From NCBI GenBank assembly GCA_958295785.1, contig OY282377.1:2680394-2744393 (forward strand): a stretch of 64,000 nucleotides of DNA, in the 5' to 3' direction. This DNA is from an uncultured Latescibacterota bacterium (lineage in GTDB: Bacteria > Latescibacterota > UBA2968). Position 1 is the stretch's first letter. Each line of letters opens with the position of its first letter. The notes under the pieces are model-generated. The model saw only the letters and a list, made by a program, of their open reading frames with translations, was not told where the DNA came from and searched no databases. Shown piece after piece: positions 4,912 to 44,603 of the stretch. The position numbers and the translations under genes are program-made.

Positions 4912-7900
4912 GTGAAGCTGATCGAATTTTCAACCCGGCGACGGGTAACGGTAACGATGTTTGTTGCGGCGGCCGTATTGTTTGGCATGGTGGCGTTTCA
5001 ACGCTTGGCAATCAACCTGCTGCCCGATATCACGTATCCCACCTTGACGGTGCGAACGGAGTACGCCGGCACGGCGCCCTCAGAGATGGAACGCTTGATC
5101 ACCGAGCCGATTGAAGGGGCCGTGGGCGTGGTCAACGGGGTGATCCGCGTCACCTCGGCCTCGCGCCCTAGCGTGTCGGATGTGGTGGTGGAATTTGCGT
5201 GGGGTACGGATATGGATTTTGCTTCGCTCGACATTCGAGAGAAGCTCGATCAAGTGCGCCTGCCGCAGGACGTGCGAAAACCCGTGTTGCTGCGGTTCGA
5301 CCCCTCGCTCGATCCGATCATGCGCGTCGGCCTCTACGGCGAAGAGAGCTTGATTTCGCTGCGCCTTTTGTCGGAAGAGGAAATTAAGCCCGAGTTGGAA
5401 AGCCTCGAAGGCGTGGCGTCTGTACGCATCAACGGCGGGTTGGAGGAAGAAATTCAAGTTGAAATTGACCAGCCCAAATTGGCTGCCTTGCGGATTCCCT
5501 TGGCGCAGGTCGTCAATCGCTTGGCGCAGGAAAACGTGAACCTGACGGGCGGCGAGCTCAAAGACGGCGAAGCGGAATACTTGGTTCGCACCTTAAATGA
5601 ATTTAAGACCATTGAAGAAATTCAGGATATTGTGGTGGGCCAGCGGCAAGGCGCGATTGTCACTCTGGCCGATGTGGGGGAAGTGCGTCGGGGGCACCGC
5701 GAACGCACGGTGATTACGCGCATTGATCGGCAAGAGAGCGTCGAACTGGCCATATACAAAGAGGGCGATGCCAACACGGTCACGGTTGCGCGCGCTGTCA
5801 AAGAGGCGATAGAAAAATTCCGCCAAACATCTGGCGATTTGTTGGGCACTGCGCGTATGGAGGTGGTGTCCGACCAATCGACATTTATTCAGGACTCGGT
5901 TTCCGAGGTGCTCAACACCGCGATTTTGGGCGGGTTTTTGGCGATTATCGTTCTCTACCTGTTTTTGCAAAGTCCCAAAAGCACGGGCATCATCAGCGTC
6001 TCCATTCCCATTTCGGTCGTTGCGACATTTTTTTTGATGTACGTGTCGGATGTGAGTCTCAATATTATGTCCCTAGGCGGGCTTGCCTTGGGCATTGGCA
6101 TGCTGGTTGACAACTCCATTGTCGTGCTCGAAAGTGTCCAGCGTTATCAAGACAAGGGGCTGGGGCCGCGCGAGGCCACCAATCGCGGCGGGTCTGAAGT
6201 GGGGCAGGCCGTGGTGGCTTCTACCATGACGACGATATGCGTATTTGTACCCATCGTCTTTGTCGAGGGCATTGCCGGGCAACTCTTTCGGGATCAGGCG
6301 CTGACCGTGACCTATTCGCTCGTCGCGTCCCTCCTCGTCGCCCTCACGGTCATTCCCATGTTGGCTTCGCTGGAATTTTCGTGGATGGGCGAATTTGCCG
6401 CTGTGGAACAGCGCAAAAAGGAAAGCGGGCACAAGGGCGGGGTGGAAGCACCGGCTCGCGCAATGGGGGTGTTCGGCGCGGTGATGGGATGGATTGGGCG
6501 CGGTATTCTCTCCTGTCTGGCGCCTCTGTTCTGGATTTTTGACCGGGTAATTGGGCGGGCTTATGTGATCTATCCGCACATTATCCGATGGGCACTCGGG
6601 CACCGCCTCGTCGTGATCGGGGTGGCTATCGCCCTTTTGGGGGGCACGGCGACTCTCGGCAAGCGATTGGGCAGTGAATTGATCCCTGAAATGAGCCAAG
6701 GCACCTTTGCGATTTCAGTCGAAATGCCGCTGGGCACGCCCCTTGCCGCGACCGCGCAAGCCATTCAAGCCATTGAGCGGATCGTTCGCAGCCAACCCGA
6801 AGTCCGCTTGGTTTACAGCATTGTCGGCACGCAATCGGCGTCTGGGGGCAGCGGCGGAGAAGAGCGGGAAAATGTGGGCGAGGTCAATGTCGTACTGCAC
6901 GAGGGCATCATTCGAGACCGCGAAATTGCCGTGATGGATCGCCTCCGCCATCACATTATGGAAATTCCCGCAGTGGATACCAAATTTACCCGCCCGTCCC
7001 TGTTTTCGTCTCGCACACCCATCGAAGTCGAAGTCGCCGGTTACAATTTGCAATCGCTGCAGATGATCGCCGGGGAAATGATGGCGCGCATGCAAACCAT
7101 TCCCGGCTTGACAGATATCAAAACCACGAGCGAAGGCGGCACGCCCGAAGTGCAAATTCGCTTTGACCGCAAGCGCGTGGCGCAGATGGGCACCACGATT
7201 AACGCCATTGGCGAGATCATCCGCAATCAGGTTCAAGGAGAGGTCGCCACGCAATTTACCCGCGGGGATCGGCGGGTCGATATTCGCGTTCGCGCCGAGG
7301 AAGAACACCGCAGCACAGTGGATGACCTACAGCGGTTGATCATCAGCCCCAACAATGCCCCCACGCCCGTGCCGTTGAGCGTGGTTGCCGATTTGCAAGT
7401 GGAGATGGGGCCTGCGGAAATCCGCAGAATTGATCAAGAGCGCGTGGCATTGATTTCGGCCAATTACGTGGGCCGAAGTCTAAGCGCTGTGGTCGCGGAC
7501 CTAGAACGCGAAATTGATCGCATTGATATACCTGCGGACTTTAGCATTAAAGTGGGGGGGCAAAATGAAGAGCAACAGCGGTCGTTTAAAAGCATGCAAC
7601 TGGCGATTGGGTTGGCAATTTTTCTCGTGTATCTCGTTATGGCGTCGCAGTTTGAATCGCTCGTCCACCCGTTTGTGATCATGTTTGCCATTCCCTTCGC
7701 ACTGGTAGGTGTTTTCGCGCTGCTCCTCATCACAGGGCAGACCATCAGCGTGGTCGTGCTCATCGGTTTGATTATGTTGGCGGGCATTGTCGTCAACAAT
7801 GCCATCGTGCTCATCGACTATATCAATACGCTGCGCCGCGATGAGGGCATGCCCAAAATGGAGGCCATTGCAGAAGCGGGCAAAGTGCGCCTGCGCCCCA

Positions 7901-8187
7901 TTTTGATGACCACATCGACAACCGTGCTCGGGTTGTTGCCCATGGCGATGGGCATTTTCAATTTTCAGCCCCTCGTAAAAAGCATCAAAGGCGCGTTGGA
8001 TGGCGTGTTGTCCGGGCAGGCATTCGCCGCGGTGATGACGGTGGTGGACATGATATTCCCAGTGGGACAGGGCGCGGAGATTCGCGCGCCGATGGCCATT
8101 ACCGTTATTGGCGGCCTGGTCGTCTCGACACTGGTGACCCTCGTTCTGATCCCAACGCTGTATTCCCTAACGGACCGCAAGGAGTAG
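4912..8187 (+). CDS. RND efflux transporter permease (AcrB/HAE1-type)
   Basis: A 1,091-residue inner-membrane proton antiporter. It has the RND layout: TM1, a large periplasmic porter domain starting 'PDITYPTLTVRTEYAGTAPSEME', TM2-6, a second porter domain, and TM8-12. The TM4 aspartate of the proton relay is visible in 'LGIGMLVDNSIVV' (residue ~400), and the matching late motif 'GIVVNNAIVLIDYIN' is present. It is slightly longer than AcrB (~1,050), with an extra ~40 residues between the last two TM helices. The GTG start directly follows the adaptor stop. It pairs with the upstream lipoprotein adaptor. Substrates cannot be predicted; the cluster's sigma/anti-sigma genes suggest envelope-damaging compounds. 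Confidence 0.93.
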   Translation: MKLIEFSTRRRVTVTMFVAAAVLFGMVAFQRLAINLLPDITYPTLTVRTEYAGTAPSEMERLITEPIEGAVGVVNGVIRVTSASRPSVSDVVVEFAWGTDMDFASLDIREKLDQVRLPQDVRKPVLLRFDPSLDPIMRVGLYGEESLISLRLLSEEEIKPELESLEGVASVRINGGLEEEIQVEIDQPKLAALRIPLAQVVNRLAQENVNLTGGELKDGEAEYLVRTLNEFKTIEEIQDIVVGQRQGAIVTLADVGEVRRGHRERTVITRIDRQESVELAIYKEGDANTVTVARAVKEAIEKFRQTSGDLLGTARMEVVSDQSTFIQDSVSEVLNTAILGGFLAIIVLYLFLQSPKSTGIISVSIPISVVATFFLMYVSDVSLNIMSLGGLALGIGMLVDNSIVVLESVQRYQDKGLGPREATNRGGSEVGQAVVASTMTTICVFVPIVFVEGIAGQLFRDQALTVTYSLVASLLVALTVIPMLASLEFSWMGEFAAVEQRKKESGHKGGVEAPARAMGVFGAVMGWIGRGILSCLAPLFWIFDRVIGRAYVIYPHIIRWALGHRLVVIGVAIALLGGTATLGKRLGSELIPEMSQGTFAISVEMPLGTPLAATAQAIQAIERIVRSQPEVRLVYSIVGTQSASGGSGGEERENVGEVNVVLHEGIIRDREIAVMDRLRHHIMEIPAVDTKFTRPSLFSSRTPIEVEVAGYNLQSLQMIAGEMMARMQTIPGLTDIKTTSEGGTPEVQIRFDRKRVAQMGTTINAIGEIIRNQVQGEVATQFTRGDRRVDIRVRAEEEHRSTVDDLQRLIISPNNAPTPVPLSVVADLQVEMGPAEIRRIDQERVALISANYVGRSLSAVVADLEREIDRIDIPADFSIKVGGQNEEQQRSFKSMQLAIGLAIFLVYLVMASQFESLVHPFVIMFAIPFALVGVFALLLITGQTISVVVLIGLIMLAGIVVNNAIVLIDYINTLRRDEGMPKMEAIAEAGKVRLRPILMTTSTTVLGLLPMAMGIFNFQPLVKSIKGALDGVLSGQAFAAVMTVVDMIFPVGQGAEIRAPMAITVIGGLVVSTLVTLVLIPTLYSLTDRKE

Positions 8188-9571: not shown

Positions 9572-9609
9572 TCGTCAATAAAATGCTGTTGGGTCACGAG
9601 GAGATGATT

Positions 9610-12600
9610 ATGAAGCACAGGTGGACGCACCGGCTGACAGTCGGCTTTTTGGGAATTGCGACAATTTTTTTTGTGATGTGGGGATGCGGACGCGAGCGCG
9701 TAAATCCAGTTGATTCAAATTTTGAGGGCAACGCGGCTTTGAATCCGCCGGGCAATATTCGCGCCCAAGGCGATATTTTGCGGATTACCTTGAACTGGAA
9801 CCCGGTGAACAGCGCCAGCCTCGCGGGATATGGCGTGTGGCGGTCAACATCGGCTACGGGAGACTTTGTTCGGTTGCGCGGCGAGGCATCTGCCGCCGAA
9901 GCGACGACAGCACGCACGACATTTGTGGATTCGACGCTCGATCTGAGTGTGTCGAAAATCTATTTTTACAAACTCACTACCGTAGATGTAGATGGGCAAG
10001 CGAGTGAATTTTCCGCTTATGTGAGTGCAGAGGCACTCGATGACGCACGCGCACCGGGCGCGCCGACAAATTTTGTCGCTATCACCGATGTCAATAACGC
10101 ACAGGTGACGCTGGGCTGGTCAGCCCCTGAGACAGATGAAGGCAATGCGGAATTGACCGGGCTTTCGGAATATAAAATTTTCAGGATCAAAGATTCGCAG
10201 GGCAGCCTCCAAGTGCAAGGGCCGCAGGAGGCACTGGTCGCACTCGTGACAGAGTTGGGCATCGATCTCGATAATTTGGGGCAATTGTCCGAAGAATTGG
10301 CAAATATTTTTGTTCAACTCGGTACCGTGCCGAGCGGCCAGACCTATTTTGTCGATACAGACAGGCTCGAAGTCGGTGTGCTTCACGTTTATTTGGTCAC
10401 GGCTGTCGATCCAGCGGGCAATACAGGGCGTGCGGCGATTGCTTTGGTAACCGTACAAAATCCGGGCGCGAGCCTGCCTGTGCCTGCTGACTTGCGCGCA
10501 ACGCAAAACGAACAGGCGCGTATCGTCATATCGTGGAATCCCGTGCCCAATCCCAATTTGCTGGGCTATCTGGTTTTGCGGTCGCAATCCACGCAAGGCC
10601 CTTTCTCCCCTGTGACAGACGATACGCTCTTTACCACGGGGCAGACGCAATACGTCGATTCCCTGGTCGTGGCCGACGAGGTGTATTTCTACAAAGTTCA
10701 AACCGTTGTGCAAGATCCGCAGCTCGGTGTGTTACACAGTGACACTTCTACTTTTATCGATGGGCGGGCCATTGTCGATGAAAGTCCTCCTGGCGCGCCC
10801 TCGGATCTGATTGTCAGCTTAGACGACGATCATTTTCAGCGCGTGACGCTCAACTGGACGGCCCCCACACAAGACAGAAATGGCGGCGATTTGACCGGCT
10901 TGGCTTCTTTCGAGATCTTCCGGTCGCGGGATAATAATACTTCCTTCGCGCTTTTAGCAACCGTATCGAGCGATCAGGTGCATTTTGTGGATATGTCCGT
11001 CGAATTGCTCACCACGTATTTTTATGCGATCCGGGCAATAGATTCGGCAGGCAATGCGGGGCCTCGTTCGGAGGCTGTGTCCGTGACGACGAAGGGGTTT
11101 GCCGTGCCGCGCAATGTGCGCGCCGAGGGTGGGGTTCAGAAGATCACGTTGGCGTGGAATGCCAATACCGAGCCGGAATTGACGGGGTATGAAATCCTGC
11201 GCTTTGCCGATCCCAAGGATGAAACGCCGGATCGGGTTTTCGATTCCGTGTTGACGACGTATGTGGATACGCCAGTTGTTGCGGGATATCCCTTTGTGTA
11301 TCGCGTGCGTGCGGTGGGTCTCTCCAATGTGAAGAGCGAATTGTCGGCCTTTGTCTCTGCCCAAGCCGAGGAACTCGTCCCGGTTTTGGCCGTGCCGCGC
11401 AATGTGCGCGCCGAGGGTGGGGTTCAGAAGATCACGTTGGCGTGGAATGCCAATACCGAGCCGGAATTGACGGGGTATCGCGTGCTGCGTTACACAGACC
11501 CTGCTCAGACAACGCCCGAAGAGACCTTTATGACTGTGCAGACGACGTATGTCGATTCGCCCTTGGTCTCGGGTCAGACGTTCGTGTATCGCGTGCAGGC
11601 GGTCGGTGTAAACAATGAAGAAAGCGAACTCTCGCAGTATGCCGCTGCAATGGTCTCGGTTGATGAAAGTCCTCCTGGCGCGCCCTCGGATCTGATTGTC
11701 AGCTTAGACGACGATCATTTTCAGCGCGTGACGCTCAACTGGACGGCCCCCACCCAAGACAGAAATGGCGGCGATTTGACCGGCTTGGCTTCTTTCGAGA
11801 TCTTCCGGTCGCGGGATAATAATACTTCCTTCGCGCTTTTAGCAACCGTATCGAGTGATCAGGTGCGTTTTGTGGATATGTCCGTTGAATTGCTCACCAC
11901 GTATTTTTATGCGATCCGGGCAATAGATTCGGCAGGCAATGCGGGGCCTCGTTCGGAGGCTGTGTCCGTGACGACGAAGGGGTTTGCCGTGCCGCGCAAT
12001 GTGCGCGCCGAGGGTGGGGTTCAGAAGATCACGTTGGCGTGGAATGCCAATACCGAGATTGAACTGACGGGGTATCGCGTGTTGCGTTACACAGACCCTG
12101 CTCAGACAACGCCCGAAGAGACTTTTATGACTGTGCAGACGACGTATGTCGATTCGCCCTTGGTCTCGGGGCAGACGTTCGTGTATCGCGTGCAGGCCAT
12201 TGGGGCAAACAACGAAGAAAGCGAACTCTCGCAGTATGCCGCTGCAATGGTCTCGGTTGATGAAAGTCCTCCTGGCGCGCCCTCGGATCTGATTGTCAGC
12301 TTAGACGACGATCATTTTCAGCGCGTGACGCTCAACTGGACGGCCCCCACCCAAGACAGAAATGGCGGCGATTTGACCGGCTTGGCTTCTTTCGAGATCT
12401 TCCGGTCGCGGGATAATAATACTTCCTTCGCGCTTTTAGCAACCGTATCGAGTGATCAGGTGCGTTTTGTGGATATGTCCGTTGAATTGCTCACCACGTA
12501 TTTTTATGCGATCCGGGCAATAGATTCGGCAGGCAATGCGGGGCCTCGTTCGGAGGCTGTGTCCGTGACGACGAAGGGGTTTGCCGCGCCGCGCAATGTG

Positions 12601-14949
12601 CGCGCCGAGGGTGGGGTTCAGAAGATCACGTTGGCGTGGAATGCCAATACCGAGCCGGAATTGACGGGGTATGAAATCCTGCGCTTTGCCGATCCCAAGG
12701 ATGAAACGCCGGATCGGGTTTTCGATTCCGTGTTGACGACGTATGTGGATACGCCAGTTGTTGCGGGACATCCCTTTGTGTATCGCGTGCGTGCGGTGGG
12801 TCCCTCCAATGTGAAGAGCGAATTGTCGGCCTTTGTCTCTGCCCAAGCCGAGGAACTCGTCCCGGTTTTGGCCGCGCCGCGCAATGTGCGCGCCGAGGGT
12901 GGGGTTCAAAAGATCACGTTGGCGTGGAATGCCAATACCGAGATTGAACTGACGGGGTATCGCGTGTTGCGTTACACAGACCCTGCTCAGACAACGCCCG
13001 AAGAGACTTTTATGACTGTGCAGACGACGTATGTCGATTCGCCCTTGGTCTCGGGGCAGACGTTCGTGTATCGCGTGCAGGCCATTGGGGCAAACAACGA
13101 AGAAAGCGAACTCTCGCAGTATGCCGCTGCAATGGTCTCGGTTGATGAAAGTCCTCCTGGCGCGCCCTCGGATCTGATTGTCAGCTTAGACGACGATCAT
13201 TTTCAGCGCGTGACGCTCAACTGGACGGCCCCCACACAAGACAGAAATGGCGGCGATTTGACCGGCTTGGCTTCTTTCGAGATCTTCCGGTCGCGGGATA
13301 ATAATACTTCCTTCGCGCTTTTAGCAACCGTATCGAGTGATCAGGTGCGTTTTGTGGATATGTCCGTTGAATTGCTCACCACGTATTTTTATGCGATCCG
13401 GGCAATAGATTCGGCAGGCAATGCGGGGCCTCGTTCGGAGGCTGTGTCCGTGACGACGAAGGGGTTTGCCGTGCCGCGCAATGTGCGCGCCGAGGGTGGG
13501 GTTCAAAAGATCACGTTGGCGTGGAATGCCAATACCGAGATTGAACTGACGGGGTATCGCGTGTTGCGTTACACAGACCCTGCTCAGACAACGCCCGAAG
13601 AGACTTTTATGACTGTGCAGACGACGTATGTCGATTCGCCCTTGGTCTCGGGGCAGACGTTCGTGTATCGCGTGCAGGCCATTGGGGCAAACAACGAAGA
13701 AAGCGAACTCTCGCAGTATGCCGCTGCAATGGTCTCGGTTGATGAAAGTCCTCCTGGCGCGCCCTCGGATCTGATTGTCAGCTTAGACGACGATCATTTT
13801 CAGCGCGTGACGCTCAACTGGACGGCCCCCACACAAGACAGAAATGGCGGCGATTTGACCGGCTTGGCTTCTTTCGAGATCTTCCGGTCGCGGGATAATA
13901 ATACTTCCTTCGCGCTTTTAGCAACCGTATCGAGTGATCAGGTGCGTTTTGTGGATATGTCCGTTGAATTGCTCACCACGTATTTTTATGCGATCCGGGC
14001 AATAGATTCGGCAGGCAATGCGGGGCCTCGTTCGGAGGCTGTGTCCGTGACGACGAAGGGGTTTGCCGCGCCGCGCAATGTGCGCGCAACCGGTGGTATT
14101 GGTCAGATAACGATTGGTTGGTTAGCCAATACCGAGATTGAACTGACGGGGTATCGCGTGCTGCGTTACACAGACCCCGCTGAGACGATGCCTGCCGAGA
14201 CCTTTCTCACCGTGCAGACGACGTATGTCGATTCGCCCTTGGCATCGGGTCAGACATTCGTGTATCGCGTGCAGGCCATTGGGGCAAATAACGAAGAAAG
14301 CGAACTCTCGCTGTATGCCTCAGCCGAAGTCCTGGTCGATGATGTTCCTCCCGCAACGCCCGGTAATTTTACCGCCATTCCGAGTGGTGGCACGGCGATT
14401 GAGTTGCGTTGGAACGCGCCCAAAACCGATGCCAATGACAATGAGTTGACCGGGCTTTCCGGTTATAGGATTTACCGTGGCACATCGGGTGCTAGCCCGA
14501 CTTTACTGGTCCGCGTGGATGCATCGAAACGCGAGTATGTTGATAGGGATGATGTGAAAGAAAATACGGCCTATGCCTATCAGATCACTGCCATTGACGG
14601 CAATGGCAATGAGAGTCCTCGGTCTGATCGCGTGACAGCGAGAACGGAAGCGGGTGTCGTGCCGCCTAGGAACTTGCGCGCCGTTTATGATAGCGATGCA
14701 CAAGCGGTCACTTTGAGATGGGTCGCGCCCCGTGTGTACGACAGTTTCTACGTTGAACGGGCAGTACTTTCCGCAGGCAGTGCTTCGAGTCAGAATTTGG
14801 CCTATCGAACGCTGGTTTCCGACCACGGCACCACTTCTTATGTAGATAGTGATGTTGCGAGTGGCACCACGTATGTTTACCGGGTTAGCGTATATTTCAA
14901 TGGACGAATTAGCGAGCCCACAGAAGCAGTCGTTATTCAAATTCCCTAG
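9610..14949 (+). CDS. Giant fibronectin type III repeat lipoprotein
   Basis: About 1,779 residues. The signal peptide ends in 'FVMWGC' (Cys26), a lipobox, so it is probably a surface or periplasmic lipoprotein. The rest is an array of ~17 FN3-like beta-sandwich domains (motifs such as 'VTLNWTAP', 'GYRVLRY', 'TYVDSPL', 'VYRVQA'). Three divergent N-terminal domains are followed by three interleaved domain types, A ('PPGAPSDLIVSLDDD'), B ('TGYEILRFADP') and C ('TGYRVLRYTDP'), in the order A-B-C-A-C-A-B-C-A-C-A-C, then two divergent C-terminal domains. The ATG at 9610 is preferred over 9583 because a GAGGAG lies 6 nt upstream and the signal peptide then starts properly. A strong terminator follows. 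Such arrays usually act in adhesion or as spacers; no catalytic domain is seen. Confidence 0.88.
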   Translation: MKHRWTHRLTVGFLGIATIFFVMWGCGRERVNPVDSNFEGNAALNPPGNIRAQGDILRITLNWNPVNSASLAGYGVWRSTSATGDFVRLRGEASAAEATTARTTFVDSTLDLSVSKIYFYKLTTVDVDGQASEFSAYVSAEALDDARAPGAPTNFVAITDVNNAQVTLGWSAPETDEGNAELTGLSEYKIFRIKDSQGSLQVQGPQEALVALVTELGIDLDNLGQLSEELANIFVQLGTVPSGQTYFVDTDRLEVGVLHVYLVTAVDPAGNTGRAAIALVTVQNPGASLPVPADLRATQNEQARIVISWNPVPNPNLLGYLVLRSQSTQGPFSPVTDDTLFTTGQTQYVDSLVVADEVYFYKVQTVVQDPQLGVLHSDTSTFIDGRAIVDESPPGAPSDLIVSLDDDHFQRVTLNWTAPTQDRNGGDLTGLASFEIFRSRDNNTSFALLATVSSDQVHFVDMSVELLTTYFYAIRAIDSAGNAGPRSEAVSVTTKGFAVPRNVRAEGGVQKITLAWNANTEPELTGYEILRFADPKDETPDRVFDSVLTTYVDTPVVAGYPFVYRVRAVGLSNVKSELSAFVSAQAEELVPVLAVPRNVRAEGGVQKITLAWNANTEPELTGYRVLRYTDPAQTTPEETFMTVQTTYVDSPLVSGQTFVYRVQAVGVNNEESELSQYAAAMVSVDESPPGAPSDLIVSLDDDHFQRVTLNWTAPTQDRNGGDLTGLASFEIFRSRDNNTSFALLATVSSDQVRFVDMSVELLTTYFYAIRAIDSAGNAGPRSEAVSVTTKGFAVPRNVRAEGGVQKITLAWNANTEIELTGYRVLRYTDPAQTTPEETFMTVQTTYVDSPLVSGQTFVYRVQAIGANNEESELSQYAAAMVSVDESPPGAPSDLIVSLDDDHFQRVTLNWTAPTQDRNGGDLTGLASFEIFRSRDNNTSFALLATVSSDQVRFVDMSVELLTTYFYAIRAIDSAGNAGPRSEAVSVTTKGFAAPRNVRAEGGVQKITLAWNANTEPELTGYEILRFADPKDETPDRVFDSVLTTYVDTPVVAGHPFVYRVRAVGPSNVKSELSAFVSAQAEELVPVLAAPRNVRAEGGVQKITLAWNANTEIELTGYRVLRYTDPAQTTPEETFMTVQTTYVDSPLVSGQTFVYRVQAIGANNEESELSQYAAAMVSVDESPPGAPSDLIVSLDDDHFQRVTLNWTAPTQDRNGGDLTGLASFEIFRSRDNNTSFALLATVSSDQVRFVDMSVELLTTYFYAIRAIDSAGNAGPRSEAVSVTTKGFAVPRNVRAEGGVQKITLAWNANTEIELTGYRVLRYTDPAQTTPEETFMTVQTTYVDSPLVSGQTFVYRVQAIGANNEESELSQYAAAMVSVDESPPGAPSDLIVSLDDDHFQRVTLNWTAPTQDRNGGDLTGLASFEIFRSRDNNTSFALLATVSSDQVRFVDMSVELLTTYFYAIRAIDSAGNAGPRSEAVSVTTKGFAAPRNVRATGGIGQITIGWLANTEIELTGYRVLRYTDPAETMPAETFLTVQTTYVDSPLASGQTFVYRVQAIGANNEESELSLYASAEVLVDDVPPATPGNFTAIPSGGTAIELRWNAPKTDANDNELTGLSGYRIYRGTSGASPTLLVRVDASKREYVDRDDVKENTAYAYQITAIDGNGNESPRSDRVTARTEAGVVPPRNLRAVYDSDAQAVTLRWVAPRVYDSFYVERAVLSAGSASSQNLAYRTLVSDHGTTSYVDSDVASGTTYVYRVSVYFNGRISEPTEAVVIQIP
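10777..12258 (+). repeat. Higher-order FN3 repeat unit 1 (1,482 bp)
   Basis: Made of an 885-bp A-B-C block (10777-11661) and a 597-bp A-C block (11662-12258). Each block starts with the same GATGAAAGTCCTCC sequence. The whole unit is repeated in tandem at 12259-13740 with very few differences. Confidence 0.9.
12259..13740 (+). repeat. Higher-order FN3 repeat unit 2 (1,482 bp)
   Basis: Second copy of the preceding unit with identical spacing: an 885-bp A-B-C block (12259-13143) and a 597-bp A-C block (13144-13740). Confidence 0.9.
13741..14337 (+). repeat. Partial FN3 repeat unit 3 (597-bp A-C block)
   Basis: A further A-C block starting with the same GATGAAAGTCC sequence. Its C domain has diverged (for example 'RATGGIGQITIGWLANTE'), marking the end of the homogenised array. 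Confidence 0.85.
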
Positions 14950-32243: not shown

Positions 32244-32783
32244 TTATCGCGGCGGCCACTTGGGACGCGCCTGAAGCGGTCGGGCGACAAATGAATGGTT
32301 GCTTGCGGTATGATCGTTGCCAGTCGAGCCAGAGCTGACCTTTTCAGATCCGATCAGGGTTGAGTTGTACACCGCTTGCTCCGGATACCCACGCGCAGAA
32401 CGCGATGCAAAAAGGGACATCTTCGCGGCTTTGGACAAAGGCCACATCCGGAGATTTGACGCCACCCGCGTTGTTTGCCCTCGATTGAGCCGCGTGCGAA
32501 ACTGCTGAAAGGTCTGGTCGAGGCGCATCGAAACAGCGGCACGCCTTTTCTCGCGCTGATCCCAGGCGCGTTTCGCGGAGAGAACGAAAATAACGCCGCC
32601 CGCAGCCCCCATCAGATAACCCATGTGTTCGCGCATGTTGCTCGGCGGATCGGCGAGATATGTCCGCCCATTGGCATCCACCAAAAATTGCCGGCCATCT
32701 CCTTTATAGTCCGAGTCGTGGACCTCAAGGCCACCCACGCAAAGTCCGGCGCCGATGAGCATTCCGAGAATAGATTCGATCAT
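32244..32783 (-). CDS. Small membrane protein, tandem paralogue 2
   Basis: A 179-residue protein of unknown family. It has two hydrophobic segments: the N-terminal 'MIESILGMLIGAGLCVGG' and 'MGYLMGAAGGVIFVLSAKRAW' (~58-78). A basic region follows ('DQREKRRAAVSMRLDQTFQQFRTRL'). The loop between the segments contains 'DANGRTYLADPP'. It is clearly homologous to the preceding gene. The start overlaps that gene's stop by ATGA and has GGAGG 7 nt upstream, implying coupled translation. The C-terminal 60 residues differ most between the copies. It may be a paired membrane complex, but no function is known. Confidence 0.6.
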   Translation of the reverse strand: MIESILGMLIGAGLCVGGLEVHDSDYKGDGRQFLVDANGRTYLADPPSNMREHMGYLMGAAGGVIFVLSAKRAWDQREKRRAAVSMRLDQTFQQFRTRLNRGQTTRVASNLRMWPLSKAAKMSLFASRSARGYPEQAVYNSTLIGSEKVSSGSTGNDHTASNHSFVARPLQARPKWPPR

Positions 32784-33301
32784 GGCGTAAGCCTCCACAG
32801 ATTTGGGGTTTGAGCTATGGTGCGTTTCGCATCTCTGTCAGAAATGAGGAGAGCGAGAGGGTCAAGCGCGACATTGATTCCCAAGGTACTACTTCCGGAA
32901 AGCGATGGATAAGGTGCGGCCTTCAAGGCTTTGGACAGGGGCCACCTCCGGGAATTTGACGCCATTCGCGTTGCTCGATCTCGATCAAGCCGCGTGCGAA
33001 ACTGCTGAAAGGTTTGGTCGAGGCGCATCGAAATAGCGGCACGCCTTTTCTCGCGCTGATCCCAGGCGCGTTTCGCGGAAAGTGCGAAAATAGCCGCACC
33101 CACGGGACCCATCAGGTAGCCCAGAGTTTCTCGGGTGGGATAGCCAAAACCCCTGCCATTGATAAGATATTTCTGCCCCTCGGGATCTACTACGGTGGTA
33201 TTGGTTCCTCTATAATCCTGTCTATAGTTCAAGTCATGAAGACTGAACCCGCCGATAAAAAGCCCGGCACCAACGAGCATTCCAAGAATAGATTCCATCA
33301 T
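32780..33301 (-). CDS. Small membrane protein, tandem paralogue 1
   Basis: A 173-residue protein paralogous to the next gene: 'MMESILGMLVGAGLFIGG', 'LGYLMGPVGAAIFALSAKRAWDQREKRRAA' and 'SMRLDQTFQQFRTRL'. The extramembrane loop differs ('DPEGQKYLINGRG'). The start at 33301 has GGAGG upstream and overlaps by ATGA the in-frame end of a third, truncated copy. The repeating unit is about 518 bp and includes the 5' overlap, which explains why each copy begins the same way. Function unknown. Confidence 0.6.
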   Translation of the reverse strand: MMESILGMLVGAGLFIGGFSLHDLNYRQDYRGTNTTVVDPEGQKYLINGRGFGYPTRETLGYLMGPVGAAIFALSAKRAWDQREKRRAAISMRLDQTFQQFRTRLDRDRATRMASNSRRWPLSKALKAAPYPSLSGSSTLGINVALDPLALLISDRDAKRTIAQTPNLWRLTP

Positions 33302-33440
33302 GGCGGAAACCTCCATAGATTTGGGGTTTGAGCTAGGGTGTGTTTCGCATCTCTGTCAGAAACGAGGAGAGCGGATGGGGCAAGCGCGACTTCGAGATGT
33401 AATAGCCGGTAGCACTTTGAAACCCCAGCGTATTGCGTTG
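33299..33440 (-). pseudogene. 3' remnant of a third copy of the small membrane protein
   Basis: On the minus strand the frame ending TGA at 33299-33301 reads 'VALAPSALLVSDRDAKHTLA' then 'QTPNLWRFPP', matching the C-terminus of paralogue 1 ('VALDPLALLISDRDAKRTIA', 'QTPNLWRLTP'). Similarity fades upstream of about 33430, where the repeat element begins. This implies that an original array of at least three was truncated by the rearrangement that brought in the element. Confidence 0.65.
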
Positions 33441-33856
33441 CCTCCTTTCTTTAACGTGTGTTTGCCTTTGTTGTTGCGAAAACAAAAAAACGTTACTGCT
33501 TTCGCCCTTTTTATATGCAAGATGTGTGCCAGAAATTTTTTAGGCAAAAAAAAGCACTTGAAAATGATGCAAGTGCTTGAGAAACAAAGAGATAAAATTT
33601 GGCGCGCATTAAATTTGCAAAAGCGACATTGAGGCCAAGTGCATTCAACAGGATACACCTATCATTGATTCTTTGACTAAAACAAACATAACTCACTGAT
33701 TCATAGAAAGTTAAACCAAAGTGCATACACAAGGACGCACCAAATACGTCGGGATACACCCCTTCAACGAGCCGATTATGTGACTAAAATAACACCTAAC
33801 CTCCTGATTTATAGAAAGATGGATAACGCACATACACGAGGACACCCCGTTCACAG
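33302..33856. other. Gene-free 555-bp region before the response regulator's 3' end
   Basis: Contains the remnant of a third small membrane protein (33299-33440), a minus-strand terminator (33544-33578) and copy L of the ~370-bp duplicated element (about 33497-33873). It is visibly richer in A and T than the surrounding genes. Open frames here are not credible genes. Confidence 0.7.
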
Positions 33857-33873
33857 CTATCTCACCGCCAAAC
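33497..33873. repeat. Duplicated ~370-bp element, left copy
   Basis: Nearly identical to about 43030-43399. It comprises the last codons of the response regulator, two degenerate tandem sub-repeats of ~107 bp (both with CTGATT(C/T)ATAGAAAG and GCATACAC-AGGAC sequences) and the GCACTTG terminator hairpin. It follows the response regulator's stop on the minus strand. Confidence 0.9.
33544..33578 (-). terminator. Rho-independent terminator after the response regulator
   Basis: Stem AAGCACTTG / CAAGTGCTT with a 9-nt loop; on minus it is followed by a T8 run. It is part of the duplicated element and related to the hairpins at 43079-43112 and 44573-44603. Confidence 0.8.
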
Positions 33874-35212
33874 GGGTGATCTTCTTCTGCAACCCACTGC
33901 GCGTCAGGCCCAATGCTTTTGCCGTCTGCGTGATATTGCCCGCGTATTTCTCGAGCGCGTCTCGAATCACCTGTTTTTCATAAGCTGCGACTCGCGCTTG
34001 CAAATGCCCTTCGGCTTTGACAGAAGCATGAGACGCCGCGCTCACTATGGATTCTGGTAAATCCGCGCGCTGAATCACCGCGCTGTCGGATAGGGCGACG
34101 ACCTGTTCCATCACATGCATCAATTCACGCACATTGCCCGGCCAAGAATGGGCACGCAACACAGAGAGCGCGTCGCGCGATAGGCCCGTTATCGCCTTGG
34201 CCTGAGCCTCGGCAAAGTGGGTCAAAAAGTGATGGGCGAGAAGATCGATGTCTTCTGGACGCTGGCGCAACGGCGGCAGGTGAATCTCAATCGTGTTGAT
34301 CCGATAAAACAAATCCTCCCGAAACGCGCCTTTTGCAATCAACGCCTTCAGATCCTGATTCGTCGCGCAGATGAGACGCATGTCGATCTCGACCTCGCGG
34401 TTGCTACCCACCTTGCGAATTTGGTGATCCTCCAACACGCGCAAAAATTTCACCTGAAGAGACATCGGCAGTTCCCCAATTTCATTGAGGAAAAACGTCC
34501 CCCCACGCGCATGTTCGATCAACCCCGTGCGATCTTGTTTCGCATCGGTGAACGCCCCTTTGACATGCCCGAACAACTCGCTTTCGACCAACGACTCGGG
34601 CATGCCCCCGCAGTTGAGCGCGAGAAATGGCATTTCGCGCCGCGCGCTGTGGGCGTGAATCCCGCGTGCCACCAATTCCTTCCCGGTCCCACTCTCCCCC
34701 GTGATCAGCACCTGGGCATCCAAATCGCTGACTTTTCGCATCAGGTCAAAAACCCGCGCCATCGCCGCGCTCTTGCCGATGATGTTCTCGAACCGAACTC
34801 GCGTTGCCAACACCTGCTTCAGCACCCGGTTTTCCACCTTCAACCGCCGCGCCTTCAATGCCTGCTCTATCGCGATCACGAGTGCTTCAAGTTCAAACGG
34901 CTTCTGGATAAAATCGGATGCCCCGGCCTTGAGCGCCGCGATGGCCTTGTCAATGGTGCCATAGCCGGTGATGACGAGCACCGCCGCATCCGGGTCGCGT
35001 GCCAAAATGCGTTTGAGCACCGCCATGCCATCCATGCCGGGCATCTTCAAATCCACAACGGTCACATCTGGGGCTTCCGCATCGAACTGCGCGAGGCCCT
35101 CCTGTCCCGATGCAGCGGTGACAACCGCATACCCCTCGGCGGTCAAAAACCCGTGACAACCGCGCAACAGATCGACCTCGTCATCTACCAATAGAATTTT
35201 CGTTTTGTCCAT
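33857..35212 (-). CDS. NtrC-family sigma-54-dependent response regulator
   Basis: A 451-residue protein. The intact receiver has the acidic pair Asp10/Asp11, phosphoacceptor Asp54 ('[11 protein letters not shown]'), Thr82 and Lys104. The AAA+ domain has Walker A 'GESGTGKEL', the sigma-54 loop in 'GAFTDA' form (219-224) instead of GAFTGA, and Walker B '[11 protein letters not shown]' with Asn243 where Asp is nearly invariant. A Fis-type helix-turn-helix ('[21 protein letters not shown]') closes it. Its likely partner is the kinase at 43384-44562: a 3' fragment of a kinase identical in type directly precedes it and supplies its GGAG ribosome-binding site. Targets may include the intervening exported-protein genes, but no -24/-12 promoter was found there by eye. 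Confidence 0.9.
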
Positions 35213-35215
35213 CGT

Positions 35216-35353
35216 TCACTCCATTTCATCTATGGGAAGGCAAATCCGAAACGCGCTACCATTGCCCGGTTGACTGCTCACCTCGAGGCGTCCCTCGTGC
35301 TTTTGAATCAACCCATAACTCACCGACAAACCCAAGCCCGTGCTTTGTCCACC
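35216..35353 (-). pseudogene. 3' fragment of a histidine kinase gene
   Basis: On minus this encodes 'GLSVSYGLIQKHEGRLEVSS' then '...FRICLPIDEME' and a stop, matching the last ~40 residues of the kinase at 43384-44562 (G2 box and C-terminal strand). Similarity stops near 35350, where a different sequence (the permease downstream region) begins. The fragment ends 4 nt before the response regulator start, as expected of a former HK-RR operon. Its own ending 'IDEME' probably represents the original kinase C-terminus. Confidence 0.85.
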
Positions 35354-35380
35354 TCTGAAATGTGCTGGCGCAAATGGGTA

Positions 35381-36265
35381 TTACTCATATCGGAGTGCCT
35401 GGACTGGATTTTGACGGATCACTTTGAGGATGTGTCCCAAAATGGTCAGTTGTGCAATGCCATACGTCAATGCGCCAACGAAGATAAAAACGCCGATGCC
35501 CAAGTCCATGTGGTAGGCAAAGGTGGTGGTCAACCACTCGTTCATGATCCAATAGGCCGCAGGCCAAGCGATGGCATTGGCGAGCAAAAGCAGTTTGGCA
35601 AAGTCTTTCGACAGCAGCCAGACCAAATACCTCTCGGAAGCCCCCAACACTTTGCGGACACCGATCTCTTTCGTGCGTTGCACAACCGCCAGCGAAGCCA
35701 ATCCGAACAGACCCAAACACGAGATGATGAGGAAAAACAAAGCCGAATGGCTGACGATCTCGCGCCATCGGTCTTCTTGTTCATACTGCCGGTGCAGATT
35801 GCGGTCCAAAAATGAAAATTGAAAGCGTCCGGACGGGACAATGGCTTTCCATGTTTCTTTGAGCATATCCAGTGTGTCGGATAGTTGATCGGAACGCATG
35901 TGGACGAAAAACGCCGGCCAATTATTGAATTGGCTCATCTGCAAGACCACGGGCTGAATCGGTTCGTACAGGGCATCGGTGTGAAAATCGCGCACGATGC
36001 CGATGATCACGGGGTCTTTTAGATTCGCGCCCTCAATTGAACCGAAGGCACCTGCTTCGCCATTGGGGAGCAGTCTTTGCTTCACCACGCGAAAGAGTTC
36101 GTCCTCGTTTTGGTGAAAGCCGTCAGACGCCCATTCGTGTTTGACAAACAAAGCCATCATGAGACAACACGCAAGCCCGAGTCCAAGCCCAAACAGGTTG
36201 ATGAAGGTGTAGAGCTTGTGCCGCATCAAATAGCGAATCGCAACGACAAAGTAATTTTTGACCAT
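35381..36265 (-). pseudogene. ABC transporter permease (FtsX/MacB-like) with internal deletion
   Basis: The 294 residues read as the two ends of a usually ~780-800-residue MacB-like permease. The first ~60 residues ('YFVVAIRYLMRHKLYTFINL', TM1, 'HEWASDGFHQNEDELFRVVK') are joined, after a short linker, to the last ~210 residues ('PVIIGIVRDFHTDALYEPIQ', then the FtsX domain 'LGLFGLASLAVVQRTKEIGV', 'RKVLGASERYLVWLLSKDF', ending 'NPVQALRYE'). The central periplasmic domain, middle TM helices and first FtsX domain are missing. The frame is intact and the start has AAGGAAAGG upstream, so a shortened protein may be made, but it is unlikely to transport. No ABC ATPase gene is nearby. Confidence 0.75.
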
Positions 36266-36289: not shown

Positions 36290-36532
36290 TTATGCAACAG
36301 CCATCTGATTTTTGATGTGCGCCTCATATTTGTTCTTCATCGCGCCTGCAATGTCCGTGTCTAATGTACATACTTTAGACTGCGGCTGGTACCTGAAACA
36401 CCCGCCCATGCACGTAGGCAAATTCTTGCAATATAGACATTCCTTATCCTGAAAAATAACGAGCATTCCCAAAATAGATTCCAGAGCTACGACCCTTTCA
36501 TTTTGAAATGCGACTGCGTGCGCCTCATTCAT
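36290..36532 (-). pseudogene. Orphan SPASM-domain fragment of a radical-SAM peptide maturase
   Basis: The 80 residues contain Cys32-x2-Cys35-x5-Cys41-x3-Cys45-x9-Cys55 ('ECLYCKNLPTCMGGC'), exactly the second half of the SPASM auxiliary cluster-binding motif (CX2CX5CX3C-gap-C), followed by a short helical tail. The radical-SAM core with CxxxCxxC is absent. The first six residues ('MNEAHA') come from the tandem-repeat junction shared with the exported paralogues, and 'LESILGMLV' matches the small membrane proteins at DNA level (24 of 26 bases identical to 33272-33297). It is thus a chimera. It precedes the truncated permease; radical-SAM/SPASM plus ABC permease combinations are typical of modified-peptide systems, so this may be a ruined one. 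Confidence 0.7.
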
Positions 36533-37445
36533 CGCTGAATCCTTGGTTCTTGCCCAAGTGCTCCAAGAAGGCTTCCACTTCACCTTCCACCTTACCCTGA
36601 ACCAGATTCAGTTCGTTTTTCAACGCGATGAAAGCGGTCTGATCTAAGTCCTTAGAAATGTGGAGCAATGCCGCATCCTTTTTGTCTTTGTTGACCCACC
36701 CCCATGTCTCGGCCATATCGAGAAAGGCTTCAAACTGCGCTTTGGGACTGGCATCCCCCAAACTGCCGGGCGCGAGCGTCTGACCCTTGAGGCCCTCTAC
36801 ATTAGGCGGATAAACCCCGAGTTCATCTATTGGTCCAATAGAGGAATTAACCGTTCGAGCACGACCTTGAGAGTAACAGATTGCAATGACAGGACCGAGT
36901 TTGCTCACGAGCGTCAAAGAAATAGATTCACCAGGAGGGATATGGCCTCCCAATGATCCCCAAAATGCCCATTTGGGTGAACCGGGCGGAGGCTCATTGG
37001 TAGAGTAGTAACGCCAGGGTTCAGGTGTTTCAGTGCGAAGAACCAAATTTCGATCTATATCTAACGCAAATACAACTAAGGGCTGAACGCTGTCTTTGCT
37101 GTTGACGAGGTGGTACGTATAGGTGTATTCGTCGTTTTCTTCATCATAGACCACCGTGCATGCCACGGTCACGTCAAGCCGATTAGAGGGTTCATAAAGC
37201 AAATCGACATACGTGCTGTCGGTCTGCCAATACCGATAGGTATAAAGCCCCGTTTTTGCATCATACGTCACCTCATGCTTTTTTTCAGCGAGATCATAGC
37301 CATCATGTCGCTTTGGATTCGGCACCTCGATGACTGTGGCACCGAGCTTGATCTCTCGGTGAATTTTGTTGAGTGGCTTGCGCTCTGCCATGCCTGAACC
37401 GGTTGCAAGCAGCATTACCAAGGTTGCAAAGATAATCGCTTTCAT
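36525..37445 (-). CDS. Exported protein, tandem paralogue 3 of 3
   Basis: A 306-residue protein of unknown family with a Sec signal peptide ('IIFATLVMLLATGSGMAERK', cleavage near AERK). The N-terminal and central parts are beta-rich ('YDAKTGLYTYRYWQTDSTYV', 'EYTYTYHLVNSKDSVQPLVV'), reminiscent of anchor or choice-of-anchor beta-sandwich proteins. A conserved alpha-helical tail ('FLDMAETWGWVNKDKKDAAL', 'ALKNELNLVQGKVEGEVEAF') resembles FIMAH-type C-terminal helices. Compared with the other copies it varies only in a block at ~125-225. The stop overlaps the start of the SPASM fragment. Function unknown; it is probably secreted or periplasmic. Confidence 0.7.
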   Translation of the reverse strand: MKAIIFATLVMLLATGSGMAERKPLNKIHREIKLGATVIEVPNPKRHDGYDLAEKKHEVTYDAKTGLYTYRYWQTDSTYVDLLYEPSNRLDVTVACTVVYDEENDEYTYTYHLVNSKDSVQPLVVFALDIDRNLVLRTETPEPWRYYSTNEPPPGSPKWAFWGSLGGHIPPGESISLTLVSKLGPVIAICYSQGRARTVNSSIGPIDELGVYPPNVEGLKGQTLAPGSLGDASPKAQFEAFLDMAETWGWVNKDKKDAALLHISKDLDQTAFIALKNELNLVQGKVEGEVEAFLEHLGKNQGFSDE

Positions 37446-37455
37446 TGCGTGCGCC

Positions 37456-38385
37456 TCATTCATCGCTGAATCCTTGGTTCTTGCCCAAGTGCTCCAAGAA
37501 GGCTTCCACTTCACCTTCCACCTTACCCTGAACCAGATTCAGTTCGTTTTTCAACGCGATGAAAGCGGTCTGATCCAAGTCCTTGGAAATGTGGAGCAAT
37601 GCCGCGTCTTTTTTGTCTTTGTTGACCCACCCCCATGTCTCGGCCATATCGAGAAAGGCTTCAAACTGTGCTTTGGGACTGGCATCCCCCAAACTGCCGG
37701 GCGCGAGCGTCTGACCCTTGAGGCCCTCTTTATTTGTTGAGGGAACTCCAAGCTCATCTATTTCTAAGTCAGGGTGGTCGGGATGAATAAAAGTTTGACC
37801 AGAACCTTTGGAGTAACAGGTTGCGATGACAGGACCGAGTTTGCTCGCGAGCGTCAAAGAAATAGATTCGCCAGGGAATATAGGACCATTTAATTCACCC
37901 CAAAATGCCCATTTGGGTGAACCGGGCGGAGGCTCACCTTTAGAAAAATAATACCATGTTGTAGGTGTTTCAGTGCGAAGGACCAAATTTCGATCTATAT
38001 CTAACGCAAATACAACTAAGGGCTGAACGCTGTCTTTGCTGTTGACGAGGTGGTACGTATAGGTGTATTCGTCGTTTTCTTCATCATAGACCACCGTGCA
38101 TGCCACGGTCACATCCAGTCGATTGAATGGCTCATAAAGCAAATCGACATACGTGCTGTCGGTCTGCCAATACCGATAGGTATAAAGCCCCGTTTTTGCA
38201 TCATACGTCACCTCATGCTTTTTTTCAGCGAGATCATAGCCATCATGTCGCTTTGGATTCGGCACCTCGATGACTGTGGCACCGAGCTTGATCTCTCGGT
38301 GAATTTTGTCGAGTGGCTTGCGCTCTGCCAGGCCTGAACCGGTCGCGAGTACCAGCATCAGGGTTGCAAAGATAATCGCTTTCAT
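37456..38385 (-). CDS. Exported protein, tandem paralogue 2 of 3
   Basis: A 309-residue protein nearly identical to its neighbours outside a central variable block (here 'TPTTWYYFSKGEPPPGSPKW', 'SGQTFIHPDHPDLEIDELGV'). Signal peptide 'IIFATLMLVLATGSGLAERK'. The start codon follows a GAGGCGCACGC sequence shared by paralogue 3 and by the chimeric SPASM fragment, so it forms part of the repeat junction. Concentrated variation in an otherwise conserved protein suggests a ligand-binding or surface-exposed patch. Confidence 0.7.
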   Translation of the reverse strand: MKAIIFATLMLVLATGSGLAERKPLDKIHREIKLGATVIEVPNPKRHDGYDLAEKKHEVTYDAKTGLYTYRYWQTDSTYVDLLYEPFNRLDVTVACTVVYDEENDEYTYTYHLVNSKDSVQPLVVFALDIDRNLVLRTETPTTWYYFSKGEPPPGSPKWAFWGELNGPIFPGESISLTLASKLGPVIATCYSKGSGQTFIHPDHPDLEIDELGVPSTNKEGLKGQTLAPGSLGDASPKAQFEAFLDMAETWGWVNKDKKDAALLHISKDLDQTAFIALKNELNLVQGKVEGEVEAFLEHLGKNQGFSDE

Positions 38386-38395
38386 TGCGTGCGCC

Positions 38396-39316
38396 TCATT
38401 CATCGCTGAATCCTTGGTTCTTGCCCAAGTGCTCTAAGAAGGCTTCCACTTCCCCTTCCACCTTACCCTGAACCAGATTCAGTTCGTTTTTCAATGCGAT
38501 GAAAGCGGTCTGATCCAAGTCCTTGGAAATGTGGAGCAATGCCGCATCCTTTTTGTCTTTGTTGACCCACCCCCATGTCTCGGCCATATCGAGAAAGGCT
38601 TCAAACTGTGCTTTGGGACTGGCATCCCCCAAACTGCCGGGCGCGAGCGTCTGACCTTTTAGACCCTCTACATTAGGCGGATAAACCCCAAGCCCATCTA
38701 TTGGTCCAATCGGAGACTTAACAGGTTGACCATAACCTTTGGAATAACAGGTTGCAATGACAGGACCGAGTTTGCTCACGAGCGTCAAAGAAATAGATTC
38801 ACCAGGAGGGATATGTCCTCCCAATGATCCCCAAAATGCCCATTTGGGTGAACCGGGCGGAGGCTCATTGGTAGAGTGGTAACGCCAGGGTTCAGGTGTT
38901 TCAGTGCGAATTGCTACACTGTAGTCTATATCTAAAGCGAATATCCATAAAGGCTGGACGCTGTCCTTACTGTTGACAAGGTGGTACGTATAGGTGTATT
39001 CGTCGTTTTCTTCATCATAGACCACCGTGCATGCCACGGTCACATCCAGTCGATTGAATGGCTCATAAAGCAAATCGACATACGTGCTGTCGGTCTGCCA
39101 ATACCGATAGGTATAAAGCCCCGTTTTTGCATCATACGTCACCTCATGCTTTTTTTCAGCGAGATCATAGCCATCATGCCGCTTTGGATTCGGCACCTCG
39201 ATGACTGTGGCACCGGGCTTGATCTCTCGGTGAATTTTGTCGAGTGGCTTGCGCTCTGCCATGCCCGAATCGGCTACAAGCAAGAGCATCAGGGTTGCAA
39301 ATATCATTGTCCTCAT
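38396..39316 (-). CDS. Exported protein, tandem paralogue 1 of 3
   Basis: A 306-residue protein and first of the array in transcription order. Its leader differs slightly ('MRTMIFATLMLLLVADSGMA') and it has its own GAAAGGAG ribosome-binding site, so it is the likely founder copy. The central region matches paralogue 3 more than paralogue 2 ('GSLGGHIPPGESISLTLVSK', 'IGPIDGLGVYPPNVEG'), showing mosaic exchange between copies. Unit length is 931-940 bp. Function unknown. Confidence 0.7.
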   Translation of the reverse strand: MRTMIFATLMLLLVADSGMAERKPLDKIHREIKPGATVIEVPNPKRHDGYDLAEKKHEVTYDAKTGLYTYRYWQTDSTYVDLLYEPFNRLDVTVACTVVYDEENDEYTYTYHLVNSKDSVQPLWIFALDIDYSVAIRTETPEPWRYHSTNEPPPGSPKWAFWGSLGGHIPPGESISLTLVSKLGPVIATCYSKGYGQPVKSPIGPIDGLGVYPPNVEGLKGQTLAPGSLGDASPKAQFEAFLDMAETWGWVNKDKKDAALLHISKDLDQTAFIALKNELNLVQGKVEGEVEAFLEHLGKNQGFSDE

Positions 39317-42950: not shown

Positions 42951-43383
42951 GACGTCTCTCCTTGTCAAAGTCAACGGATGCCGCGTTGCCATGTTACCCG
43001 CCATCAATGCGAAAATTTCGGGTCGTTGCGGTTTTCGCCCTTATTTATTCGCAAGATGTGTGCCAGAATTTTTTTAGCACAAAAAAAGCACTTGAAAATG
43101 ATTCAAGTGCTTGAAAAACAAAAAGATAAAATTTGACGCGCATTAAATTTGCAAAAGCGACATTGAGGCGCAAGTGCATTCAACAGGATACACCTATCGT
43201 TGATTATTTGACGAAAACAAACATAACCCACTGATTCATAGAAAGTTAAACCAAAGTGCATACACAAGGACGCACCAAATACGTCGGGATACACCCCTTC
43301 AACGAGCCGATTATGCGACTAAAATAACACCTAACCTCCTGATTTATAGAAAGATGGATAACGCACATACACAGGCCCCCCGT
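42951..43383. other. Gene-free region holding the right copy of the duplicated element
   Basis: Between the histidine kinase stop and the FlgD-sorted protein start. It holds the right copy of the ~370-bp element and a minus-strand terminator (43079-43112). The 80 bp next to the FlgD-sorted gene is unique. It is clearly A+T rich compared with its neighbours. Confidence 0.7.
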
Positions 43384-43399
43384 TCACAGCTGTCTCACC
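43030..43399. repeat. Duplicated ~370-bp element, right copy
   Basis: Nearly identical to 33497-33873, including the ~107-bp sub-repeats and hairpin. At 43390-43399 the element begins inside the last codons of the kinase: the sequence encoding response regulator 'AVR-stop' is fused to the kinase coding sequence. Confidence 0.9.
43079..43112 (-). terminator. Rho-independent terminator after the histidine kinase
   Basis: Perfect 11-bp stem (AAGCACTTGAA / TTCAAGTGCTT) with an AATGA loop; on minus it is followed by a long T-run. Confidence 0.85.
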
Positions 43400-44562
43400 G
43401 CGTCATCTATGGGAAGGCAAATCCGAAACGCGCTGCCTTTGCCCGGTTGACTGCTCACCTCGAGGCGCCCCTCGTGCTTTTGAATCAACCCATAACTCAC
43501 CGACAAACCCAAGCCCGTGCCTTTGCCCACATCCTTGGTGGTAAAAAAGGGATCGAACACATGAGCGAGATCCGCCTCGGGGATGCCCTCGCCCGTATCC
43601 TCCACGCGGATCACCACCCAAGCGCGATCTGATGCGTCCGGCTCATGTGCCGTTGAAACCGTCAAAATACCGCCTTTGGGCATCGCGTCTATCGCATTGT
43701 CGAACAAATTTATCAGCACCTGCTCAATGCCGATGGGATCGACCCACAACTTGGGCAATCCGGCTTTCAATTTGGCGCGATACACAATGGCGCGGTCTTT
43801 CAGTGCATTTTTGACCAGCCTCGCGGCACGGCGCACCGTCTCGTTGATATCGACCAATCGGGGCTTAAAAGGCGATTGGCGGGAGAAGGACAGCAACTCG
43901 GAGATGATGTGGGCAATTTTATTGTTTTGCCGTTGAATGGTCGCTATCGCCTCGATCATAGCCGCTGACACGGGCTGATTTTTCACCTCGCGCATCATAT
44001 TGGTCAGATGTACCCCAATAATGCTCACCGGATTGTTCACCTCGTGGGCGATCCCACTGACCAAATGGCCGAGTGTTGCCTCCTTGGAGGCCTGTATCAA
44101 TTGCTGCTCCAACAGCAACTGCTCGGTCATGTCGCGCACGATGCCCGTGAACAATCGCTTGTCTTTTAAGACCACATCGCCGACTGCCAAATCCATGGGA
44201 AATTCCGTTCCATCTTTCCGCAGGCCATTTACCTTCCGCCCGTAGCCTATAATTCGGGGCGTGCCCGTTTCCAAATACCGGGCAATATAGCCATCGTGTT
44301 GGCTACAATGGGGTTCGGGCATCAGCATGGTCACATTGTTGCCGATCACTTCCTCGGCGCGATAGCCGAAAACGCGCTCGGCTGCGGCATTGAATGATTG
44401 GACAATCCCATGGCTGTCAATGGTAATGATCGCGTCAACCGTGGTTTCCAAAATCGCCTTGTACTGGCTTGCCGTCTCTTTCAACGCGCTACATTCTGCT
44501 TCCAATTCAGCAACGCGCCGCCGCAGTTGGACGGGTTCTCTTTGGGCGTTTTGATCTTTCAT
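43384..44562 (-). CDS. PAS-domain sensor histidine kinase
   Basis: A 392-residue soluble kinase: an N-terminal coiled-coil (~10-35), a PAS domain (~35-150, 'GIVQSFNAAAERVFGY', 'RKDGTEFPMDLAV'), a HisKA domain with H-box 'GIAHEVNNPVS' (His173), and a HATPase domain with 'NLFDNAIDAM', 'VEDTGEGIP', 'FTTKDVGKGTGLGLSVSYGL'. There is no transmembrane segment, so it would sense cytosolic cues, as NtrB does. The C-terminus ends 'PIDDAVRQL', whereas the duplicated fragment at 35216 ends 'PIDEME': the last residues derive from a fused response regulator end. No regulator lies beside it; the presumed partner is at 33857-35212. The ATG at 44562 is preferred to a TTG at 44574. Confidence 0.88.
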   Translation of the reverse strand: MKDQNAQREPVQLRRRVAELEAECSALKETASQYKAILETTVDAIITIDSHGIVQSFNAAAERVFGYRAEEVIGNNVTMLMPEPHCSQHDGYIARYLETGTPRIIGYGRKVNGLRKDGTEFPMDLAVGDVVLKDKRLFTGIVRDMTEQLLLEQQLIQASKEATLGHLVSGIAHEVNNPVSIIGVHLTNMMREVKNQPVSAAMIEAIATIQRQNNKIAHIISELLSFSRQSPFKPRLVDINETVRRAARLVKNALKDRAIVYRAKLKAGLPKLWVDPIGIEQVLINLFDNAIDAMPKGGILTVSTAHEPDASDRAWVVIRVEDTGEGIPEADLAHVFDPFFTTKDVGKGTGLGLSVSYGLIQKHEGRLEVSSQPGKGSAFRICLPIDDAVRQL

Positions 44563-44572
44563 CCTATCTCTC

Positions 44573-44603
44573 AAAAAAAATGCACTTGAATGCGTTCAAG
44601 TGC
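44573..44603 (-). terminator. Rho-independent terminator after mreC
   Basis: 9-bp stem GCACTTGAA / TTCAAGTGC, TGCG loop; on minus, T8 follows. It shares its stem sequence with the terminators of the split two-component genes. Confidence 0.85.

Follow-up and report, generated by a model that had tools for sequence, protein, structure and literature searches.

A short SPASM-containing ORF in a Latescibacterota genome as the probable remnant of a radical-SAM maturase gene

In the 64,000-nucleotide stretch of Latescibacterota DNA analyzed here (the window), an ORF of 81 codons on the reverse strand (36290..36532) carries part of a SPASM domain. Comparison with a relative in which the corresponding genes are complete suggests that this ORF is what survives, dead or dying, of a radical-SAM/SPASM maturase gene, with a history of cassette decay around it, a reading to which we assign a probability of about 0.9. 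The remnant is real, if fairly ordinary, and the comparative evidence for it is unusually clear. Intact and broken copies within one genus show the piecemeal loss of a regulated, putative peptide-modification cassette, and they point to an intact, uncharacterised radical-SAM–permease operon in the related genome G004. For annotation they carry a warning: a short ORF with SPASM sequence need not encode a small protein and can instead be what is left of a longer gene.

Sequence and probable origin of the SPASM remnant

The ORF (36532-36290, approximately 80 residues) reads MNEAHAVAFQNERVVALESILGMLVIFQDKECLYCKNLPTCMGGCFRYQPQSKVCTLDTDIAGAMKNKYEAHIKNQMAVA, and its ATG overlaps the stop codon of the last gene of an exported-protein array (ATGA). 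The cysteines are spaced C-x2-C-x5-C-x3-C-x9-C, a motif that occurred once in a six-frame translation of the whole window and in 0 of 40 shuffled windows. The full SPASM motif, CX9-15GX4C-Xn-CX2CX5CX3C-Xn-C, contains seven cysteines (PMC5715301), five of which are present in the ORF; these make up the second half only (CX2CX5CX3C-X9-C), and the first half is missing. NCBIfam TIGR04085 (SPASM) was matched at positions 56-79 of 93 (E 2.1e-4), confirming the original prediction that the ORF represents the second half of SPASM, and the end of the maturase model TIGR04280 was matched with E 1.5e-4; neither match reaches its curated cut-off. No match to the ORF was found in Pfam, including Radical_SAM, or in PADLOC, and the CX3CX2C radical-SAM core is absent from its 81 residues, in keeping with the earlier proposal that the core had been lost. 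Lacking both this core and the first half of SPASM, the remnant enzyme cannot work.

A scan of a collection of 84,980 species returned one relative, on the Latescibacterota MAG contig JAJEDY010000087.1 (L006), which belongs to G004, a genome of the same genus as the window genome. There, a complete radical-SAM/SPASM gene (6807-8174) encodes 455 aa, and its residues 399-448 match positions 36457-36308 of the window, with 44 of 50 residues identical (E 6.5e-28; identity 86-88%). All five second-half cysteines are retained in this part without frameshift or stop, and, as is established for anSME, they include ligands of the second auxiliary cluster. The homology to the full-length enzyme is the decisive evidence for the probable origin of the remnant. 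The first ~25 codons of the ORF are foreign: it opens on the final codons of an array unit and continues through a 26-bp patch of another gene before the SPASM sequence is reached. The patch (36458..36483, reverse strand) agrees at 24 of 26 positions with the beginning of gene 33316-32780 (ESILGMLV); the source of the 57 nt 5' of the SPASM part was thus traced in part, for these 26 bp.

The array itself comprises three tandem exported proteins of ~306-315 aa (36525..39316, reverse strand), which are 86-90% alike and whose units also overlap by ATGA. It had been proposed that this array was left behind by the eroded cassette, a claim that found no support. G004 has no such array, and the single homologue (65%), in G005 (L045 3271-4185), lies in a different context with no radical-SAM gene nearby. 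We therefore regard the array as a neighbor and not as part of the ancestral cassette, and we rejected it as a candidate for the product of the cassette on the same grounds.

The intact cassette of G004 and the shortened window permease

The radical-SAM protein of G004 matched PF04055 (Radical_SAM) with E 2.3e-17 and contains the CX3CX2C motif as CNFRCVYC. Both SPASM halves are present, the first as C...C with Ala at the usual Gly and the second as CLDCKNLPTCMGGC-X9-C. The gene is followed after 145 bp by an intact MacB/FtsX-type permease of 796 aa in which MacB_PCD and FtsX domains each occur twice. Upstream of the pair, genes for a PAS histidine kinase and for a regulator of the NtrC type are present, and a match to a sigma-54 promoter, TGGCACGCATCTTGCT, precedes the radical-SAM gene by about 70 bp. 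This arrangement and the promoter match suggest sigma-54 control of the radical-SAM–permease operon.

The order of radical-SAM gene and permease in G004 is the same as that of remnant and truncated permease in the window. The window permease (35381..36265, reverse strand) carries an in-frame internal deletion of about 500 residues, corresponding to ~77-578 of the intact protein, so the description of an adjacent FtsX/MacB-type permease without its middle proved correct. Its N-terminal piece (36265-36043) contains the first TM region, and the other piece (36037-35381) corresponds to residues ~579-796, that is, the end of the second periplasmic domain and the C-terminal FtsX domain. These pieces showed 86% and 78% DNA identity, respectively, to the two ends of the G004 permease, and the domain search recovered one FtsX domain and a PCD fragment as a weak match only. 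The finding of both genes intact and in the same order in G004 bears out the prediction that a radical-SAM/SPASM gene once stood before an intact permease. A point against this reading is that the surroundings are unlike: in the window genome, the epimerase that neighbors the cassette in G004 is found at a distance of 2.6 Mb.

The wider prediction of an eroded maturation and export cassette, for which relatives were to show a full radical-SAM/SPASM gene, a small precursor, and an intact permease plus ATPase, held for the enzyme and the permease; the other components were not recognised beside them. No convincing small (Cys-rich) ORF was found from -6 to +9 kb of the G004 radical-SAM gene, and a 52-aa peptide from a distant homologue's locus (G046), used as a query, gave no match in G004 (best E 0.18). 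No ABC ATPase was recognised among the ORFs adjoining the permease in G004 or the window by reading of sequences and hits, with part of these ORFs profile-scanned, and no membrane-fusion partner was seen beside the G004 permease. It is possible that a precursor or ATPase is encoded elsewhere in the genome. Genomes of the genus contain 8-29 strong matches to duplicated MacB/FtsX permeases each, often in tandem, with the fewest in the window genome; because the permease is one of so many paralogues, its assignment as the exporter of the radical-SAM product is a guess.

Proposed duplication and decay, and alternative explanations

To the left of the truncated permease, an NtrC-type sigma-54 response regulator is intact (33857..35212, reverse strand; receiver, sigma-54 activator, and HTH_8 domains; 63% to the G004 orthologue). 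Between the two lies the 3' remnant of a second histidine-kinase copy (35226..35355, reverse strand), which shares 95.4% identity with 43403-43533 across 131 bp; the rest of this copy is deleted, and the truncated permease is fused in front of what remains. The other copy, an intact PAS histidine kinase (43384..44574, reverse strand), has its last codons fused to the end of a deleted regulator. A sigma-54-like promoter, TGGCACACATCTTGCG (43050..43065, reverse strand), follows it within 43024-43401, a segment 93.7% identical to 33491-33868. From the kinase region of copy 1, the order is FlgD-type, CBM9-type, and array genes, radical-SAM remnant, truncated permease, and copy 2. The kinase–regulator–promoter module thus appears to have been duplicated in tandem, with the regulator of copy 1 and the kinase of copy 2 subsequently lost. 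The sigma-54-type promoter match of copy 2, TGGCACACATCTTGCA (33516..33531, reverse strand), now precedes the genes at 33316-32244. These two tandem genes (window 32244-33316) encode proteins of ~180 aa that start with ESILGML, are 59% alike, and have no family match.

We propose that in an ancestor of the genus a kinase/NtrC pair and a sigma-54 promoter controlled one operon of a radical-SAM/SPASM gene and a duplicated MacB/FtsX-type permease. Through radical chemistry, the enzyme would have altered a ribosomally made peptide or protein; the permease would have resided in the inner membrane, perhaps exporting what the enzyme produced. In the window lineage, the module would have been duplicated and trimmed as above, the radical-SAM gene would have lost all but its last ~50 codons, which became fused behind the exported-protein array, and the permease would have lost its middle. 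A role in RiPP maturation, suggested by the maturase families that the intact enzyme resembles and by its distant homologues, remains putative, as does the export role of the permease.

It is conceivable, but in our estimate improbable, that both fragments are still used, as a small Fe-S protein and a one-unit mini-permease expressed from the array operon. Both frames are open, the cysteines are intact, the starts are plausible with ATGA coupling, and AAGGAAGGTC stands before the ATG. In pairwise comparison with G004, dN/dS was low, at 0.09 and 0.18 for the two permease ends, and the SPASM remnant showed about 7.5 nonsynonymous versus 22.5 synonymous changes. However, the young age of the duplication accounts for the open frames and low ratios: the dead kinase copy is ~5% diverged from the live one, compared with a dS of about 1.35 between the window kinase and regulator and those of G004, which suggests that the rearrangement was recent relative to the species split and that little decay is to be expected yet. 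The rearrangement could be older than it looks if gene conversion has acted on the two kinase copies. The ratios mostly reflect the period before the break and, with a single intact orthologue, cannot date it. Moreover, the fragments occur in one genome only, the permease is without most of its periplasmic core and all later TM helices of unit 1, and unrelated sequence makes up the opening third of the small ORF.

Two close relatives show decay of this cassette as well. G001 and G010 retain the opposite end, namely the sigma-54 promoter and the first 25 radical-SAM codons joined to foreign sequence, and G010 additionally retains the last 105 bp of the permease. With 96.5% identity across 346 bp, these scars represent one event; the window scar keeps the other end and represents a separate event. 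By parsimony, the cassette was probably present early in the genus and lost at least twice. A MITE-like element of ~120-130 bp with terminal inverted repeats GCTGTTGCCGAATT lies at the G001/G010 scar (L043 11272-11391, L042 9148-9271). An assembly or sequencing artefact, in which repeated kinase, promoter, and array copies were misjoined, would suit a region so rich in near-identical repeats, but we consider it very unlikely, since the repeat copies differ by 5-10% and are distinguishable, the genome is one contig, and the decay in G001 and G010 is independent. A free-standing small SPASM-like family without any loss can practically be dismissed: the 80-aa ORF is self-contained and carries the motif, but among 64 genomes of the phylum, where such a family was looked for as the refuting case, the 81-aa query found only itself and the full-length enzyme of G004 with the permease adjoining in the same order.

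Comparison with known systems

The G004 enzyme resembles radical-SAM/SPASM RiPP maturases, aligning over nearly its full length with TIGR04463 (E 1.5e-56), Clo7bot TIGR04334, and CefB NF038107; the geopeptide maturase family TIGR04280 is also among its matches, far below cut-off. It scored far below the cut-offs of all named maturase families (best 192 versus 525 bits), and its best PDB match was the radical SAM protein 5wgg. Unlike in RiPP maturase systems, no Cys-rich precursor lies beside the G004 gene, and the window enzyme is broken, with the second SPASM half only. A distant homologue in G046 stands beside a 52-aa ORF with four cysteines, with subtilase-like and ABC-exporter-like neighbors recognised by sequence reading only, and in G113 several Cys-rich short ORFs lie beside its two radical-SAM genes. 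The G004 permease aligned over its full extent with TIGR03434 (E 4.9e-81), the model for ADOP-type duplicated MacB/FtsX permeases, and in part with NF038008 (E 1.7e-28), the model for DarB-type permeases, both below cut-off. Unlike in these systems, no ATPase or membrane-fusion partner was seen beside it, and the window copy is without ~500 residues. The literature on Latescibacterota radical-SAM RiPPs, ADOP permeases, FlmE, and geopeptides yielded nothing directly relevant.

As in sigma-54/NtrC two-component operons, the cargo gene comes directly after a histidine kinase, an NtrC regulator, and a promoter match of the -24/-12 type. Unlike in typical operons of this kind, the cargo varies by species (radical-SAM–permease, Sel1-repeat protein, or array block), and in the window the regulator pair is split by cargo. 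The same module with other cargo was found in G001, G003, G007, G009, and G010, and it adjoins ATP synthase genes in G004, G007, and G010. A doubtful extension is that the module is a switchable slot in Latescibacterota in which cargo is gained, duplicated, and eroded, and that the radical-SAM–permease pair is a new type of peptide modification with its substrate encoded elsewhere.

An association like that in G004 recurs in other families of the phylum, where geopeptide-like radical-SAM/SPASM genes scoring 309-353 bits against TIGR04280 (cut-off 400) directly adjoin NtrC-type regulators and/or sensor-kinase-like genes (L079 421-5522, L081 156-5289, L082 29-3156). Elsewhere in the window, the long gene at 9583-14949 contains large internal repeats (10774-14351) that are 90-95% identical.
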